This document shows positions 5,158-61,887 of a stretch of DNA of 64,000 nucleotides, piece after piece. Origin of the DNA: Traorella massiliensis (GTDB taxonomy: Bacteria; Bacillota_I; Bacilli_A; Erysipelotrichales; Erysipelotrichaceae); the NCBI RefSeq assembly GCF_900104665.1, contig NZ_LT629969.1:248001-312000 (forward strand), in the 5' to 3' direction. Numbering within the stretch: the first letter of the stretch is position 1; every line of letters starts with the position of its first letter. The position numbers and the translations under genes were made by a program. The notes under the pieces are model-generated. The model did no database searches, was not told the origin of the DNA, and saw only the letters and a program-made list of their open reading frames with translations.

Positions 5158-6030
5158 TTTAGAAACCCATCTACCATAAATACCACAAGGTAAGATCGTT
5201 TGAGTACGGGTGATTGGTAAACCGTTTTCTCCGGATTCAATGATACCATTAGGATATTTTCTTAATAAAGTAGAATGAAGAATATTATTTAATACGGTTG
5301 GTGAAAAGCCTGTTGTATAGGAATTTACTAGGAAAAATAGAGGATCATCATCAAGAATATCCATACATTTGAGGATAAGCGGATAAAGCTGTTCTTCAAT
5401 TTTCCATATTTCACCGCCTGGTCCACGGCCATAGCTTGGCGGATCCATGATGAGGGCATGATAGGTTCGGCCACGTCTTTTTTCTCTTTCTACGAATTTA
5501 ATGACATCGTCAACGATAAAACGAATTTTTTTATTTTCCAGATGTGACAGGACCATATTTTCTTTTGCCCAATTTACCATTCCTTTAGAGGCATCAACGT
5601 GGACTACTTCACAAGCATTGGCACTTGCACATGCCATGGTTGCACCTCCTGTATAGGCAAATAGGTTTAGGACACGAATATCACGATTTGCTTTTTGGAT
5701 TTTATCCATCATGAAATCCCAGTTAGCTGCCTGTTCAGGGAAAAGACCGGTATGTTTAAAGCCTGTAGGTGAGACTTTGAAGGTCAGATGCTTATAATTG
5801 ATCTTCCATTCATTTTTTAAAGGCTTGAGAAATTCCCAGCTTCCACCACCGGATCTTGAACGGTGATAATGGGCATGAGGATGAAGCCAAAGCCTGTCTT
5901 CTTTTTCAATGGGCCATAATGCCTGTGGATCGGGACGACGAAGGATGACATCTTTCCATCTTTCCAGTTTTTCACCATTTCCGGTATCGATACATTCATA
6001 ATCTTTCCATTCTGATGCTGTCTGATTCAT
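5152..6030 (-). CDS. Class I SAM-dependent methyltransferase, RlmI/COG1092-like
   Basis: 292 residues. The AdoMet-binding motif I is VLNLFAYTGGATMACA at about residues 120-135, the acidic residue after strand 2 is in VVHVDAS, and motif IV is LIMDPPSYGRGPGG, the DPP(S/Y) type found in base-modifying RNA methyltransferases. The upstream part (EDRLWLHPHAHYHRSRS) is family-typical but lacks an obvious PUA domain, so the exact target base is uncertain. I place the start at 6030 rather than 6057, because GGAAGTG lies 7 bases upstream of that ATG. It lies convergent to the XRE gene and shares its terminator. Confidence 0.8.
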   Translation of the reverse strand: MNQTASEWKDYECIDTGNGEKLERWKDVILRRPDPQALWPIEKEDRLWLHPHAHYHRSRSGGGSWEFLKPLKNEWKINYKHLTFKVSPTGFKHTGLFPEQAANWDFMMDKIQKANRDIRVLNLFAYTGGATMACASANACEVVHVDASKGMVNWAKENMVLSHLENKKIRFIVDDVIKFVEREKRRGRTYHALIMDPPSYGRGPGGEIWKIEEQLYPLILKCMDILDDDPLFFLVNSYTTGFSPTVLNNILHSTLLRKYPNGIIESGENGLPITRTQTILPCGIYGRWVSKK

Positions 6031-6144
6031 ATATTCACTTCCAATCCAGATTATCATATCATATTTTCAAGTCTTTGAAACCCATACTTTCACAATTTTT
6101 TATTCTTTGAAATATGGTATAATAAAAGAAAGCGAGGTGTTTTG

Positions 6145-6897
6145 ATGAAAAACAAGTATTATGACGATTTTAGATGTTGTGAATTAAAGACAAAAGTAAA
6201 AGAAGTGATCGAGGATAAAGGTTTTTTTTGGCATACGTTTGATAACACGATTTTTTACGCTGACAAACGTCATCCTGATCATGGCTATATCAATCAGTAT
6301 GAAGTATTAAAACTAAAAGAAAAAAATGGGATTGTTTATCATCTTTTACATGAAAAATTAGAAGGTGAAGCAGTAATGGTGGTAAATCCTGGCAGAAGAT
6401 ATATCCATGCTCAAAATGAAACTTTATCACTTTTGATGAATAAGATGGTTCAGGGTGTCTATCGTTGTGAGTGTGTCGATCATTATATTACTGATTTTTT
6501 TATGGTGAGCCGCTTTAAGGGAAAATGTCTGAGCTCTCAGCAAAAAAATGAATTGCAGGTATCTTTAAATGGCATGATTCGAGATGATTATGATGTTAAG
6601 ATCAGTTATGAAAAAATCAGCGAAGACAGGTATGTTGCTATTGGTGTTTTCCCTGCGGAAAAAAACACTCAGATTCATGTACCAAGTCTTAAATTTATTC
6701 AGATGATGAAAATTCTTGAAATTGTAGATAATAAAAATGATGAATTTGCGATCATTACGACTTGTGGTGATCAGATGCTGTTCACGATTGAAAAGTATTA
6801 TGATATTATCAAAGAAGCCAGTAAAATATTGAATTGTGAACCGATGTTTATTAATACAAGCATTCATCAATTATTAAATAAAATAAAAAGCAATTGA
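6145..6897 (+). CDS. Alanyl-tRNA-editing (AlaX)-like protein, degenerate
   Basis: 250 residues. The order of elements resembles the AlaRS editing/AlaX fold: an N-terminal stretch FFWHTFDNTIFYAD where the family has a Gly-rich strand, GIVYHLLHEKLEGEAV, then GRRYIHAQNETLSLLMNKMV in the place of the zinc helix (family HxxxH). Here the second histidine of HxxxH is a glutamate, and no CxxxH motif is visible near the C-terminus, so zinc-dependent editing is unlikely. I start at ATG 6145, 9 bases after GCGAGGTG, rather than the TTG just before it. Family membership is inferred from pattern only and could be wrong. Confidence 0.45.
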   Translation: MKNKYYDDFRCCELKTKVKEVIEDKGFFWHTFDNTIFYADKRHPDHGYINQYEVLKLKEKNGIVYHLLHEKLEGEAVMVVNPGRRYIHAQNETLSLLMNKMVQGVYRCECVDHYITDFFMVSRFKGKCLSSQQKNELQVSLNGMIRDDYDVKISYEKISEDRYVAIGVFPAEKNTQIHVPSLKFIQMMKILEIVDNKNDEFAIITTCGDQMLFTIEKYYDIIKEASKILNCEPMFINTSIHQLLNKIKSN

Positions 6898-6943
6898 AAA
6901 TGATACGGCAAGTGTTATAATCTAATAGTTGAGGGAGATTATT

Positions 6944-7534
6944 ATGAAACGATTGTTAAAAGTATTAAGCTGCTCTGCATTACTTTTATGTGGATGTCAG
7001 CAACAGGAACAGCAAGAACCGGTTGAGGAAGAAGTAGTCAGTATTGTCAGCAATGATATTTATGCGGATCCCAAAAATCCTTCAAATGCGTACACATTGG
7101 TATTTAATCAGTTAGCTGAAGATATTGCAGCCAATGATATGGAACAGCTGAGCGAGGATGTAGCTGTTTGTTTTGTCTATGATTTTTTCACATTGAAAAA
7201 TAAAGAAGATAGTACGGATATTGGAGGCTTAGCTTATCTGCCACAAAATCGTGTGGAAGAATTTACTTCTTTTGCACAGCAGCATTTCTATCGAAATTAT
7301 GATTCGATCGTAACAGAGCAGGGAGAAGATGCTCTGCCTGAGGTAACAAATGTGACTGTTGAAAGTACAACTGCCAAACAAGTTAGTTATCTTGATGAAA
7401 CTTATGATGGATATGAGTATGAAATAAGTGTAGAGTATGCAGATACAAGTATCAATAGTGATGAATTGAAGACGAAGCTGACGATGACTTGTCTTGTCTA
7501 CAATGGAAAAGCGATGGTTATTGCGGTAAGTTAA
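6944..7534 (+). CDS. Small secreted lipoprotein of unknown function
   Basis: 196 residues with a lipoprotein signal: a positive start, a hydrophobic core and the lipobox LLCGC, with the modified cysteine at about residue 18. An acidic spacer (QEPVEEEVVS) follows, then a mixed alpha/beta domain ending in a strand. I recognise no family. The ATG at 6944 follows GAGGGAGA. Its stop lies one base before the psuK start, so it is probably in one transcript with psuK-psuG; a role in nucleoside or carbohydrate capture is only a guess from that position. Confidence 0.65.
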   Translation: MKRLLKVLSCSALLLCGCQQQEQQEPVEEEVVSIVSNDIYADPKNPSNAYTLVFNQLAEDIAANDMEQLSEDVAVCFVYDFFTLKNKEDSTDIGGLAYLPQNRVEEFTSFAQQHFYRNYDSIVTEQGEDALPEVTNVTVESTTAKQVSYLDETYDGYEYEISVEYADTSINSDELKTKLTMTCLVYNGKAMVIAVS

Positions 7535-55791: not shown

Positions 55792-56004
55792 ATGGCTGTC
55801 CAGTACAACCGGCTGTGGAAATTGCTGATTGATAAAAAGATGAAAAAATCCGCCCTGACAGAGTTGGCAGATGTGTCCTCCTCTACGATAGCAAAGCTGA
55901 ACCGGGACGAATATGTGAGCCTGGAGGTTTTGGAGCGGATCTGCCGGGCGCTCCGCTGTGACATCGGGGATGTAGTGGAGCTGACGGAAGAATCGGAGAA
56001 ATAA
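55792..56004 (+). CDS. Small Cro/CI-type HTH protein
   Basis: 70 residues: YNRLWKLLIDKKMKKSALTE, SSSTIAKLNRDEYVSLEVLE and CRALRCDIGDVVEL form a minimal XRE-type helix-turn-helix (HTH_26 class). I start at ATG 55792 because GGCGGGAG lies 9 bases before it; the ATG at 55783 is too close to that site. It is the first gene in the GC-rich region and stands before the LuxR/MFS-like regulator; the two probably share a transcript. Confidence 0.8.
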   Translation: MAVQYNRLWKLLIDKKMKKSALTELADVSSSTIAKLNRDEYVSLEVLERICRALRCDIGDVVELTEESEK

Positions 56005-56043: not shown

Positions 56044-57456
56044 ATGAAAGGGGAACTGAGAAAGCCGGCGTCTGTCAACGCCATTCTGCTGATCGGTATT
56101 TTTACTTTTGTCTTTTTAGGGGCGGAATATCTGTTTGTCAATATGATTTCTCTGTCGGTGACGGAAGGGAGAACTGTCATTGCCCAGAACTATGCGCTGG
56201 GCGCCAGCGCCGTCGGCTTTTTCTTGTATCCGGCCATGGAACGCTGGGGCGGGAGGCGCTATAAAAGCGCGCTGACCTTTATCCTGGCGCAGGGTGCGAT
56301 TATCTGTACCTTCATTGTCCAGCAGCATATCTCCTATGCGGCGACCATGACGGCAGGGATGGTGCTCTTCCTGCTGCTGGGCGTTTTCGGCAGCGCCGTC
56401 CACTATCTGGCTGCCGTCACCATAGACGGCGACAATGCATTGGCACGGCTGGCGGGGATCGCCTACGCCCTGGGAATTCTGCTCCAGTATGCAAACAACA
56501 ACCTTGTCAACCTGGAGGTTGCGGAGGCGGCGTTTCTTTCGGTATTCCTGGCGGCTTTGAGCCTGCTGGTCATCCGAACGAGACAGGCCGCCCAAAGCCG
56601 CATCGAAATGACGGAGACTGCGGGCGCCTCTTCGGAACCTGCGGAAGACATTTCCCTCACCCGGAAAAAACGGACGGCGGGCATTATGCTGGCGCTGCTG
56701 GTAGTGCTGATGGCCTGCGTGTTCAGCACACTGGACAATGCCGTGACTCTCCGTCATGCGAGCGGGACGGATATCGGGCAGTGGCCCCGCCTGCTGCTGG
56801 CATTCAGCGGCCTCGCCGCAGGCTTTGTCTTCGATATCCGCAAGCGGAAGTATATGGGGCTTATTATGTACTGCGTGATGATGATGTCGGTTCTGTCCAT
56901 TGTGGTACTGAACCTGGGCGCTCCGTTCCTGATCGGACTGGTGGTCTTTTACCTGTCCTCGGGCTTTTTCGTTGTCTTCTTTACAGCGAGCTTTATGGAG
57001 CTTTCCCGGCATATGCGCCTGCCGTCGCTGTGGGCGGGCATGGGCCGCGCCATGAATAACGTGAGCGCCGCCCTGATCACCAACGGATCGGTGGCGCTGC
57101 TGGCCACTGGCAACAGCCTGGCCGCCATTGTCATCGCCCTGGTGCTGTTCGTGGCGGTCAGCGTTGCTATGGCCGTGTATACCGCCTGCATGAACGCCGT
57201 CATGGAGCCCAAGGAGCCGCCTGCTTCCCAAAAGTCGGACGAAGAGCGCAGGGAGGCGTTCATCGCAAAATACGGGCTGACCGAACGGGAATGGGATGTA
57301 TTTTCCCAGATGATTTCTTCGGACAGCAGCGCCCAGGAGATCGCCGACTGCCTGTTCCTGTCCAAGCGGACGGTGGAACGGCATATCTCCGCCCTGTACG
57401 AAAAGACGGGCGCAAAATCCCGCATCACTATGTACCTGCTTTACCGTAACGATTAA
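56044..57456 (+). CDS. LuxR-family regulator fused to MFS-like membrane domain
   Basis: 470 residues. About eleven or twelve membrane segments cover residues 12-395, interrupted by a charged loop (ETAGASSEPAEDISLTRKKR). The C-terminal 65 residues form a LuxR/GerE helix-turn-helix (LTEREWDVFSQMISSDSSAQ, SKRTVERHISALYEKTGAKS). Membrane-embedded LuxR regulators of this kind are common in gut Actinobacteria and Clostridia and are believed to sense small molecules. GGAAAGGGTGGTACG precedes the ATG. A terminator follows at once. Confidence 0.88.
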   Translation: MKGELRKPASVNAILLIGIFTFVFLGAEYLFVNMISLSVTEGRTVIAQNYALGASAVGFFLYPAMERWGGRRYKSALTFILAQGAIICTFIVQQHISYAATMTAGMVLFLLLGVFGSAVHYLAAVTIDGDNALARLAGIAYALGILLQYANNNLVNLEVAEAAFLSVFLAALSLLVIRTRQAAQSRIEMTETAGASSEPAEDISLTRKKRTAGIMLALLVVLMACVFSTLDNAVTLRHASGTDIGQWPRLLLAFSGLAAGFVFDIRKRKYMGLIMYCVMMMSVLSIVVLNLGAPFLIGLVVFYLSSGFFVVFFTASFMELSRHMRLPSLWAGMGRAMNNVSAALITNGSVALLATGNSLAAIVIALVLFVAVSVAMAVYTACMNAVMEPKEPPASQKSDEERREAFIAKYGLTEREWDVFSQMISSDSSAQEIADCLFLSKRTVERHISALYEKTGAKSRITMYLLYRND

Positions 57457-57471
57457 CATACAGGATAAAAG

Positions 57472-57509
57472 AACACCCTGCTTTCTCTCAGGAGAGGCAG
57501 GGTGTTTTT
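57472..57509 (+). terminator. Terminator after the LuxR gene
   Basis: AACACCCTGC and GCAGGGTGTT form a perfect 10-bp stem, with an inner CTCT/AGAG stem in the loop, followed by five T. Confidence 0.9.
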
Positions 57510-57702
57510 GTGTGCGGTAACGAATTGTCCTGATAAAAAACATCGTTTTCCCCACTTGAAAAATGAAATTTACGCCATTCGGCATCCGCGAAAGGAAAAA
57601 TCAGGAAAGAAAAGCACACCTCATCCCCTACTTGGAACGATTAGAAGTTATGCATATATAAAGCCTCAAAATAGTTGCTTTGATTTATATAATATGCACA
57701 AG

Positions 57703-57750
57703 TGGCGGTTGACCGCCATCGGTTTTTTGAAAAATGGCGGTTCACCGCCA
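57703..57750. promoter_or_regulatory. Two 16-bp palindromic operators
   Basis: TGGCGGTTGACCGCCA at 57703-57718 and TGGCGGTTCACCGCCA at 57735-57750. Each has 7-bp arms and a 2-base centre; centres are 32 bases apart, three helix turns. A TATAAT lies just before the first (57688-57693). They probably bind a dimeric regulator that controls the lipoprotein genes. The rest of 57510-57876 shows no gene. Confidence 0.7.
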
Positions 57751-57876
57751 CCTGTTTTGATACGATTGGCGGGATTTACGCATAGACAATCCGGCCTCTT
57801 TTCACCTAAAATGAGGGCGTAAGAATCCACTTCCCGGCGTCTGCCGCGGTTCCCCAAAAATTCAGGAGGAGAAGAA

Positions 57877-57921
57877 ATGATGGAAATTAATAAAAATCGA
57901 TCAGGAGGCATTCTGCTATGA
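57877..57921 (+). CDS. Candidate 14-codon leader peptide
   Basis: ATGATG at 57877 follows CAGGAGGAGAAGAA. The frame has 14 codons (MMEINKNRSGGILL) and stops at TGA 57919-57921, overlapping the ATG of the lipoprotein gene (ATGA). The lipoprotein's own ribosome site, AGGAGGCA, lies inside it. It may serve translational coupling or control; no function beyond that is visible. Confidence 0.4.
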   Translation: MMEINKNRSGGILL

Positions 57922-59054
57922 AAAAGAAAAGCGTATTATCCCTGCTGCTGGCGGCGGCGCTGGCGCTCTCCCTCGCCGGTTGCGCCGGGCAGGGGCAGCC
58001 GGGCGGAAAGGAGCCTGTCGTCAACAGCGACGGGACCATCACGAAAGAAGAAAACGACGTAAAAATCACTGAGACAGCGGCCAGGTCCATCGAAACCGAG
58101 CTGTATGAAACGGCGGATTTCAGCCTGCAGATCCCCAAGGGCTGGACAGTCACCAGCGGCGGTACGGCCATGTACCATTCCATCCGGGTGCAGGATCCCA
58201 GCCAGCCCCTCAACCAGATGTTTGTCCTGCTGAAGGCGGAGGGCCTGCTGCACAGCCAGGAGGGAAAGGACGCCTATGCGTATAACGTCACCATGGGGAA
58301 CACATGGGCGCAGATGCTTTCCCAGGCGCCGGTGCTGACAACCCCCTCCACCGAAAACTTTTTCAAGCTGTTTTCGGAATACGCGGCGTTTGTAGAGCAG
58401 TGGGAGCCGAGCTATGCCGGCTATACCTTCCCCCGGTTTGACGGCTTTGCCGTGACCGGCCGCTTTGCCTCGGCCAGCCTCCTGTCCTCGTATGCTCTGG
58501 GAGAAGAGACGCTGCGGGCGTCCTTTACCGAAAACGGCAAGGAAGGCGAGGGGATGTTCGCCGCGTCGGTGGTGGACTTCGGAAGCGTTGATATTGCCGC
58601 AGGACTGCCGGTAGGATATATCATCCCCCGGGCGGACGGCGGCTACTACATGGCATACAACGTCATGGCGGTCACCGCCGCGAAGGATACCTTCATCGAA
58701 TGGGAGAGCGTCCTCACCAAATGCCTTGGAACGCTCGCCTATTCTGAGAGTTTCGTAAAAGCCACTGAGCAGGCCGGTGAAGAAAAGGTGGCGATGTCAA
58801 AGGAAATCAGCCGCATCACCAACGAGAGGCTGGAAATCATCATGGCGGCCTGGGAGGACCGGAACGTCGAGCAGGACATCACCAGCCAGATGCAGAGCGA
58901 CGAAACCGGCGGCTACGAGCGCGTGTACGACACGCAGACCGGCGAAATCTACCGGGCGGAGGCCGGATGGTATGAAAGCACCGGCAGTGACCGCTACAAG
59001 CCGGTGACTGAAAACAAAATGTATGCAGAGCCCATCAGCGGTTACATCGAATAG
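57918..59054 (+). CDS. Lipoprotein of unknown function
   Basis: 378 residues. The signal has lipobox SLAGC at about residue 22, with Lys-rich N-terminus. The body starts with an acidic linker and a beta-rich part (FSLQIPKGWTVTSGGTAMYH), then a helical part (TEQAGEEKVAMSKEISRITN). The C-terminal stretch GGYERVYDTQTGEIYRAEAG resembles a domain in which lipoproteins of gut Clostridia end. No family recognised. It is the first gene behind the twin operators; 59107 and 59485 follow with short gaps, suggesting an operon. Confidence 0.7.
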   Translation: MKKKSVLSLLLAAALALSLAGCAGQGQPGGKEPVVNSDGTITKEENDVKITETAARSIETELYETADFSLQIPKGWTVTSGGTAMYHSIRVQDPSQPLNQMFVLLKAEGLLHSQEGKDAYAYNVTMGNTWAQMLSQAPVLTTPSTENFFKLFSEYAAFVEQWEPSYAGYTFPRFDGFAVTGRFASASLLSSYALGEETLRASFTENGKEGEGMFAASVVDFGSVDIAAGLPVGYIIPRADGGYYMAYNVMAVTAAKDTFIEWESVLTKCLGTLAYSESFVKATEQAGEEKVAMSKEISRITNERLEIIMAAWEDRNVEQDITSQMQSDETGGYERVYDTQTGEIYRAEAGWYESTGSDRYKPVTENKMYAEPISGYIE

Positions 59055-59106
59055 GGAAGCGGCGGAAAACCGCAAACAAGGAATACATGATAAGGAGGGA
59101 AACGGA

Positions 59107-59451
59107 ATGCGTCAGGTGAAAAGGCTCCTTCCCTATGTCCGGCGGTATGTGCAGATGGCCGTTTACGACGTGCTGGACGCGGAGGGGGCGGAATACCGGA
59201 AAGAGGAAAGCGGCGCGGTGGTCGCCCGGCTTTCGGTTTACGGGAACGTCAGCACCTTCAGCCTTTCGACAGAGATACAGGATGTGGGGACCGGACTGAC
59301 GGTTTCCATGCGTGAACCCTGTCCCGGCCTGTCGGCCCAGGGAGAGGAACGGGCGGTGACCGCCGTAGCCGATAAGGTTGCCCAGTACCTTGAGAACGAG
59401 CTGATGATCAACCGCCGCTGTTTCGTGCCGGACCGGCATTATGCCGTATAG
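59107..59451 (+). CDS. Hypothetical small protein
   Basis: 114 residues, unknown family. MRQVKRLLPYVRRYVQMAVY is a basic helix, followed by a beta-rich centre (VVARLSVYGNVSTFSLSTEI) and a helix near the end (VTAVADKVAQYLENELM). No signal peptide or membrane segment. ATG 59107 is preceded by AAGGAGGGAAACGG. It lies between the lipoprotein and the membrane-anchored protein, all on the same strand. Confidence 0.55.
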   Translation: MRQVKRLLPYVRRYVQMAVYDVLDAEGAEYRKEESGAVVARLSVYGNVSTFSLSTEIQDVGTGLTVSMREPCPGLSAQGEERAVTAVADKVAQYLENELMINRRCFVPDRHYAV

Positions 59452-60234: not shown

Positions 60235-61887
60235 ATGCCAAGAAAAAAGAGACTGTTTGCGCTGCTACTGTCCTTATGCATGGTAGTGGCAATGGTGCCC
60301 GTCGCCGTGTTGGCGGCAGGCGCAGGTATGCCCCAAAACATACGATGGGCAGAGAGCCCTAAAAGCATGGTACAGTGGGACGCGCCCTCGGGCGGCGGCC
60401 AGTATCAATACGAGCTTCGGTTGAAGCTCGGCGAGACAATAATTGACGGTCCCGATTTTACAGTACAGAGATATCATCTGTTTAATGGCAGCCTGATGAC
60501 GGAGGCTCGCGAAAATTACACAGTTGAAATAAGGGCGAGAAGCTGCATCATTGTCGGAGAGTTTCCCAACGAATACGTTACCAGCCCAGGAGAATGGGGT
60601 GACTGGGCTACACTTGAAGGCTCCGGCGGTGGTGGAGAGGGTCCTACTCCCCCCCATGAACACATCTTCGATGGCTGGCAGAAAGATGACACCAATCACT
60701 GGAAGGAGTGTTCCTGTGGTGAAAAGCTGAATGTGGCAAACCATGCCTACGGCGAATGGAGCGTGACGAAGCCGGCCACCACAACGGAGGAGGGTTCCCG
60801 GGAGCGCACCTGCTCCGTCTGCGAATATACGCAGAAAGAGACGATTCCGGTCCATGTACACAGCATCCATGACGAAACATGGAAATATGATGATACTAAT
60901 CACTGGAAGGAGTGTTCCTGTGGTGAAAAGCTGAATGTGGCAAACCATGCCTACGGCGAATGGAGCGTGACGAAGCCGGCCACCACAACGGAGGAGGGTT
61001 CCCGGGAGCGCACCTGCTCCGTCTGCGAATATACGCAGAAAGAGACGATTCCGGTCCATGTACACAGCATCCATGATGAAACATGGAAATATGATGATAC
61101 TAATCACTGGAAGGAGTGTTCCTGTGGTGAAAAGCTGAATGTGGCAAACCATGCCTACGGCGAATGGAGCGTGACGAAGCCGGCCACCGAGACCGAAGAA
61201 GGCTCCAAAGCACGTGACTGCACGGTCTGCGACCATGTTCAGACCGAAACCATTCCGATGCTTGAACATGAGCATGGCATCCATGACGAAACATGGAAAT
61301 ATGACAAAACCCAGCACTGGCAGGAATGCTCCTGCGGTGAAAAGCTGAATGTGGCAAACCATATCTACGGCGATTGGAAAGTAACCAAAGAGGCCACTGA
61401 AACCGAAGTGGGTTCCAGAGAGCGCGGCTGTACGGTCTGTGAATATGTGCAGGTTGAAATCATCCCGGAGATCGGGCATGAGCACGGCATCCATGATGAA
61501 ACGTGGAAATATGACGAAACCGACCACTGGCAGGAATGCTCCTGCGGTGAAAAGCTGAATGTGGCAAACCATACCTACGGCGATTGGAAAGTAACCAAAG
61601 AGGCCACCGAGACTGAAGCGGGTTCCAGAGAGCGCGGCTGTGCAGTCTGTGAATATGTGCAGACTGAAGCCATCCCTGCAGCGGGAACCGGAGAGCCAAC
61701 CGATTCGACTGATCCGACCGATTCATCCGATTCGCAGGGTCAGCAGGATCCTTCCGGCGACACCGGCAGCCCCCAGACTGGGGACGGCAGCGATATGGCG
61801 CTGTGGATCGGCCTGATGATGGCCTCCTGCGGCGGGGTGCTGGGGATGCTGTTCTACAGGCGGAAAAAGGCGGCGGCCGGGAAATAA
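60235..61887 (+). CDS. Repeat-bearing surface protein with C-terminal sorting signal
   Basis: 550 residues. Signal peptide (1-27, ALLLSLCMVVAMVPVAVLAA), a fibronectin-like N-terminal domain (about 30-135), then five tandem units of 68-70 residues, each with HDETWKYDDTNHWKECSCGE, ANHAYGEWSVTKPATTTEEG and CSVCEYTQKETIPV. The Cys and His positions (CxC, H, CxxC) are kept in every unit, suggesting a metal site. A Thr/Asp/Ser-rich stretch leads to SPQTGD, a membrane segment and RRKKAAAGK, a sortase-type anchor. GGAGAG precedes the ATG. The protein is probably exposed on the surface. Confidence 0.8.
   Translation: MPRKKRLFALLLSLCMVVAMVPVAVLAAGAGMPQNIRWAESPKSMVQWDAPSGGGQYQYELRLKLGETIIDGPDFTVQRYHLFNGSLMTEARENYTVEIRARSCIIVGEFPNEYVTSPGEWGDWATLEGSGGGGEGPTPPHEHIFDGWQKDDTNHWKECSCGEKLNVANHAYGEWSVTKPATTTEEGSRERTCSVCEYTQKETIPVHVHSIHDETWKYDDTNHWKECSCGEKLNVANHAYGEWSVTKPATTTEEGSRERTCSVCEYTQKETIPVHVHSIHDETWKYDDTNHWKECSCGEKLNVANHAYGEWSVTKPATETEEGSKARDCTVCDHVQTETIPMLEHEHGIHDETWKYDKTQHWQECSCGEKLNVANHIYGDWKVTKEATETEVGSRERGCTVCEYVQVEIIPEIGHEHGIHDETWKYDETDHWQECSCGEKLNVANHTYGDWKVTKEATETEAGSRERGCAVCEYVQTEAIPAAGTGEPTDSTDPTDSSDSQGQQDPSGDTGSPQTGDGSDMALWIGLMMASCGGVLGMLFYRRKKAAAGK
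60697..61680 (+). repeat. Five-fold tandem repeat of 204-210 bp
   Basis: Starts of the repeat core (CACTGG or the GAC/GAT GAAAC segment) lie 204, 204, 210 and 210 bases apart. Units 2 and 3 are almost identical in DNA, units 4 and 5 form a second pair, so the array grew by duplication of one and then two units. It codes for the 68-70 residue module of the surface protein. Confidence 0.85.

Follow-up and report, generated by a model that had tools for sequence, protein, structure and literature searches.

Three putative operators at a 32-bp period between a membrane-embedded LuxR/NarL-type regulator gene and a surface-lipoprotein operon in Traorella massiliensis

In the window analysed here, that is, the whole stretch of 64,000 nucleotides from Traorella massiliensis, three sites that recur with a period of 32 bp (O1, O2 and O3) are probably the operators of the LuxR/NarL-type regulator encoded just upstream of them, through which it would activate the neighbouring surface-lipoprotein operon. 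Judged by comparison of the homologous sequences, the conserved core of the arrangement is the half-site beside the -35 hexamer rather than the twin palindromes to which the initial annotation of this DNA had drawn attention. The features concerned are the following, in coordinates of the window.

56044..57456, + strand: regulator gene, encoding a hydrophobic membrane domain and a C-terminal GerE (LuxR/NarL-type) helix-turn-helix (HTH); proposed binder of O1-O3
57472..57509, + strand: intrinsic terminator of the regulator gene, a stem-loop followed by T5 (-25.2 kcal/mol, z -4.7)
57688..57693, + strand: TATAAT, candidate weak upstream promoter with a poor -35 (CTCAAA); ranks second and does not appear in the stricter scan
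57703..57718, no strand assigned: proposed operator O1, perfect 7-2-7 palindrome TGGCGGT-TG-ACCGCCA; missing in L022 and L023
57735..57750, no strand assigned: proposed operator O2, perfect 7-2-7 palindrome TGGCGGT-TC-ACCGCCA; invariant in 12 of 12 aligned copies
57751..57766, no strand assigned: linker between O2 and O3, CCTGTTTTGATACGAT, of which CCTGTTTT is also found in L061 and G059
57767..57782, no strand assigned: proposed operator O3, left heptamer TGGCGGG and a degenerate right half; abuts the -35
57783..57812, + strand: predicted promoter TAGACA-18-TAAAAT, top score in the 461-bp intergenic region and the sole one from the stricter scan
57918..59054, + strand: 378-aa lipoprotein (signal peptide and lipobox by inspection), first intact downstream gene and presumed target
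59023..59451, + strand: small conserved protein; similar proteins are encoded by the first gene past the operators in L061 and by one of the first in G685

The two palindromes were described correctly from the start. O1 (TGGCGGTTGACCGCCA, 57703-57718) and O2 (TGGCGGTTCACCGCCA, 57735-57750) are each a perfect pair of inverted heptamers around a 2-bp spacer, and their centres, at 57710.5 and 57742.5, lie 32 bp apart. There are 14 perfect 7-2-7 palindromes of whatever sequence in the window, so one such element alone is not rare; two that share one heptamer at a distance of 32 bp are. With up to 3 mismatches allowed, the window contains 6 matches to the pattern TGGCGGTNNACCGCCA, where shuffled sequences lead one to expect 0.64, and O1 and O2 are its only exact matches; with 0 or 1 mismatch they are also the sole matches in the 2.6-Mb genome, and the pair is absent from all 59 other relatives searched. 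O1 and O2 belong to two copies of a 32-bp repeat unit (75% alike) and so do not represent two independent chance events.

A third TGGCGG, which the initial annotation overlooked, is found at 57767-57772, exactly 32 bp beyond O2, and it is the most conserved element across the homologues. The last base of the 16-bp O3 frame is 57782, and the -35 hexamer TAGACA follows from 57783. If transcription is assumed to start about 7 bases past the -10, near 57819, the centres of the sites fall at about -44 (O3), -76 (O2) and -108 (O1). The palindromes had also been described as lying next to a TATAAT; this hexamer is real (57688-57693, with O1 starting 10 bp downstream of it), but its -35 is poor and the relevant promoter is found downstream of the pair. 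An imperfect inverted repeat, TTATGCATAT...ATATGCACAA at 57648-57701, flanks the upstream TATAAT, and in several relatives TTGTGCATAT takes the place of a repeat arm, which makes the repeat perfect.

The preferred site of NarL has the 7-2-7 form, and at napF such sites lie at about -40 to -49 (PMC4549865). Where they can be assessed, the array has the sequence features of NarL-type sites: inverted heptamers 2 bp apart occur in O1 and O2, O3 retaining the left heptamer only, and O3, abutting the -35, has the expected position near -40 to -49 relative to the predicted start. The likeness to the NarL/FixJ-type sites of E. coli napF and yeaR (PMC4549865) extends over the 2-bp-spaced inverted heptamers, the GerE-type HTH and the location of the site just upstream of the -35. 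In contrast to NarL, whose heptamer is of the TACCCCT type, the heptamer here is TGGCGGT, the three sites stand at a fixed 32-bp period, and the regulator is membrane-anchored and has no receiver domain.

The C-terminal domain of the regulator (residues 412-464) matches GerE in Pfam with E=1.9e-11 (43.8 bits against a cut-off of 23.5), and the nearest PDB structure to its HTH is GerE, 1fse. Simple hydropathy gives 8 strong hydrophobic segments in the N-terminal part, and MFS_1 matched weakly, below the cut-off, in two homologues of the regulator; the AlphaFold model, with a mean pLDDT of 38.5, was too poor to use. The designation "LuxR-type" in the initial annotation holds in so far as a GerE-type HTH is encoded just upstream of the palindromes, but the protein is a GerE/NarL-type regulator on a membrane domain and not an autoinducer LuxR. 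Pfam gives GerE alone in this protein, with no autoinducer-binding domain, and its identity as a quorum-sensing LuxR was rejected on this ground. Quorum-sensing LuxR proteins have a GerE-type HTH and a palindromic site near -42, and the system described here has both features; however, no 20-bp lux box is present, and ACCTGT occurs only inside the linker.

The regulator is likely to belong to the 10-12-TM LuxR family, of which it has the C-terminal LuxR-type HTH (PF00196). The membrane LuxRs DadR, CadR and HcdR of Eggerthella lenta activate adjacent genes on sensing their substrate (PMC9734109); they resemble our regulator in the hydrophobic multi-helix N-terminus, the C-terminal GerE HTH and the location of the gene next to its presumed target, whereas the type described here is found in Clostridia, in mobile DNA and by surface-protein genes, and the E. 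lenta regulators are found by catechol dehydroxylases. No binding site for the family was found in the main text of PMC9734109.

The following course of events may be proposed. The N-terminal transmembrane domain would hold the GerE domain against the cytoplasmic side of the membrane, and the GerE domain would dimerise on the 7-2-7 inverted heptamers. The regulator bound at O3, centred at about -44, would touch RNA polymerase in the manner of NarL at napF and yeaR, and O2 and O1, located on the same face of the helix (32 bp corresponds to three helical turns), would add cooperative binding; upon ligand sensing, the regulator would turn on the operon of surface lipoproteins and the small conserved protein. 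The sites, how they are spaced, the promoter register and the recurrence of all these next to diverged homologues are seen in the sequences, whereas binding, activation as opposed to repression, cooperativity and ligand sensing are all steps that we infer.

The main alternative on the sign of regulation is repression through O1-O3: the LuxR-type regulator would bind the same sites, but O1 and O2 would block the TATAAT at 57688 and O3 would compete with polymerase at the -35. The start of O1 10 bp past the TATAAT agrees with it, and at frdA NarL acts as a repressor through a 7-2-7 site that lies at the transcription start (PMC4549865). Nevertheless, no good -35 accompanies the upstream TATAAT, the conserved position just upstream of the -35 is where activators typically bind, homologues that have no O1 keep this position, and the characterised membrane LuxRs are activators (PMC9734109), so that we consider repression unlikely.

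Several genera of gut Clostridia yielded eleven full-length copies with regulators 92-100% identical, and G685 is a twelfth. In the near copies (L014-L024 and L078) the operators as well as the regulator are 92-100% alike, which points to a recent horizontal transfer across Clostridia genera, and because of this recent spread they are, taken alone, weak evidence and little more than one observation. Most of them keep both palindromes; L022 and L023 are short by exactly one 32-bp unit. The linker between O2 and O3 is 1 bp shorter in L018 and G685 and otherwise invariant in the near clade, and the O3 changes in this clade are two, both on the spacer bases 57774-57775. An alignment of 12 rows shows 3 variable positions among the 110 that run from O1 to the -10; in the surrounding sequence 34 of 299 are variable (Fisher p=0.006). 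Genes similar to parB and traG are located near the array in L021. In L024 (Pseudoflavonifractor sp. An85) the regulator gene (6001-7410) stops at codon 178 and the operator array is intact.

More distant relatives carry the argument further. The proposal that the palindromes are sites of the LuxR-type regulator encoded upstream gains support from locus L061 (MT835506), a contig from human faeces that was deposited as phage, where the layout recurs beside a regulator only 46% identical to ours. The regulator gene there is followed by TGGCGGAAGTCCGCCA, then by the linker ACCTGTTTTTTGCAGAT, which includes CCTGTTTT, and then by the half-site TGGCGG, 33 bp from the first site. The counterpart of O2 is TGGCGGA-AG-TCCGCCA: both arms differ from O2 in the last heptamer base (T/A to A/T), and the palindrome is kept. 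The -35 of the top-ranked promoter, TATACA-17-TATAAT, starts 16 bp past the start of the half-site, and the first gene past the sites encodes a 116-aa protein that by inspection resembles the product of 59023-59451 in the window.

The offset of 15-16 bp between site and promoter is found not only in L061 but also in G056 and G170. In G056, TGGCGGATGTCCCTTA (TGGCGGA) comes soon after the stop codon and the top-ranked promoter is at +15; in G170, whose regulator is about 23-26% identical, the site is TGGCACACATACGAAC (TGGCACA) and the top-ranked promoter lies at +16; the site of G222 is TGGCGGACTGCCGACG, and the promoter there, also at +16, is weak. In G059, TGGCATACATGTGAAC and TGTCACATTTGTGAAC lie exactly 32 bp apart with CCCTGTTTTTCAAGAA between them, the CCTGTTTT linker is present, and TATTAT follows 23 bp beyond the second site.

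We combined the match to TGGCGG and the strength of a promoter 15-17 bp later into one score and compared each locus with 1000 dinucleotide shuffles. No shuffle reached the score of the window, L061 or G056, and 1 reached that of G170; for G222 and G059 the numbers were 76 and 857. These counts are optimistic in that the score and its weights were picked after the sites had been seen. The register of site and promoter accordingly looks strong in the window, L061, G056 and G170 and suggestive in G222. G059 fails this score because its sites differ from TGGCGG, and its case rests on the tandem spacing and the linker. The motif search near homologous regulators that had been suggested as a check on the palindromes was favourable, with a palindrome and a half-site before the promoter in L061 and the register kept in others. 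As an outside control, a palindrome-16-half-site pattern with at most 1 mismatch, its spacing fixed at 32, was sought in 395 genomes of the class and matched in this genome alone, and by eye no TGGC site was recognised downstream of the more distant regulators of G607 and G006.

The recognition helices appear to track the sites. The window, L061, G056 and G222 have the helix R-T/S-V/L-E-R and sites with TGGCGG; G170 and G059 have R-M-V/L-Q-R and sites with TGGCAYA or TGTCACA; L060 and L062 have L-Y-R and no TGGCGG palindrome adjoining the gene. Since there are only a few groups, and they agree with kinship as well, this correspondence is a lead and not a proof.

Some observations count against the sites being operators of the regulator. 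O3 is a half-site and not a palindrome, and the paralogue in the same genome (L060:6429-8780, equal to G000:C9:786431-788780), whose regulator is 58% identical, has no TGGCGG palindromes, though the paralogue has another recognition helix and sits in a decayed locus. The L060 regulator runs in frame into a lipoprotein remnant (an ORF of 783 codons) and the intergenic region appears decayed; AGAGACAAATGTAACC, which has a similar register there, was left uncounted because of this decay.

Alternatively, the palindromes may be bound by another dimeric regulator, most plausibly the 68-aa HTH_26 protein, a Cro/C1-type regulator whose gene of 68 codons (55792-55998) is located just upstream of the membrane LuxR gene. 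Cro/C1-type HTH_26 proteins bind palindromes of such length, and the protein is encoded in the window, where its Pfam match has E=2.8e-19, as well as in G059 and every near copy. However, tblastn found no relative of it in the flanks searched around L061, G056, G170 and G222, all of which keep the site by the promoter, and the HTH_26 protein therefore cannot be the general binder and was rejected as such. The sole DNA-binding gene common to all such loci is the membrane GerE-type regulator, and a different binder seems to us improbable.

It is very improbable that O1 and O2 act as RNA hairpins, that is, as intrinsic terminators, or as an attenuator within a leader whose transcription would begin at the upstream TATAAT. 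A pattern scan does flag O1 (+ strand) and O2 (both + and - strands) as terminator-like with T-runs after them, and the two arms can also pair with each other (-33.3 kcal/mol); but a good terminator already stands behind the regulator gene (57472-57509), the T-runs of the + strand begin several bases past the stems, G059 keeps the CCTGTTTT linker behind a site that forms no hairpin, O3-type sites have no hairpin at all, and a search of Rfam gave no match. A hairpin followed by a T-tract is not conserved across the homologues. A neutral tandem duplication of no regulatory role, preserved by recent horizontal spread, would suit the 92-100% identity of the near-copy regulators and the two copies short by one unit, but it is scarcely credible, as palindrome, linker, half-site and promoter register recur by the 46%-identical regulator and the near-clade array varies less than its surroundings.

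If the sites are indeed operators of the membrane-embedded regulator, the array may, as a tentative and rather less than even proposition, provide the first operator description for this LuxR-type family: a class II site at the -35 together with a variable number of helix-phased 32-bp copies, gained and lost as whole units and tying the promoter to the membrane via several dimers, with helix changes (E, Q, Y) that match changes in the heptamer. Were this true, an operator with fixed spacing and natural one- and two-copy variants would make membrane-anchored activation directly testable, and the correspondence between helix and site would offer a rule for finding the targets of related regulators. 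Membrane-spanning LuxR regulators govern important gut reactions in Eggerthella.

Searches of viral contigs and plasmids gave no further arrays: viral contigs contained none with the strict pair pattern and none when searched with the regulator proteins and the alignment, and the plasmids searched contained none. A looser palindrome plus half-site pattern returned three GC-rich matches in viral contigs, which were set aside as chance matches, having no related regulator.

The 378-aa lipoprotein encoded at 57918..59054 matched no family in Pfam or NCBIfam. Compared with L014 and L024, the window is shorter by about 2.9 kb, lost from between the promoter and this gene (57880-57885 against L014:7842-10731). 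With this DNA went a small protein, a 398-aa lipoprotein and a lipoprotein of the GH3 glycosidase family; the junction is located at GGAA. Downstream of the proposed operon, the 550-aa product of 60235-61887 is a surface protein whose tandem repeats (HDETWKYDDTNHWKECSCGEKLNVANH) are nearly identical to one another and whose C-terminal segment resembles an anchor.
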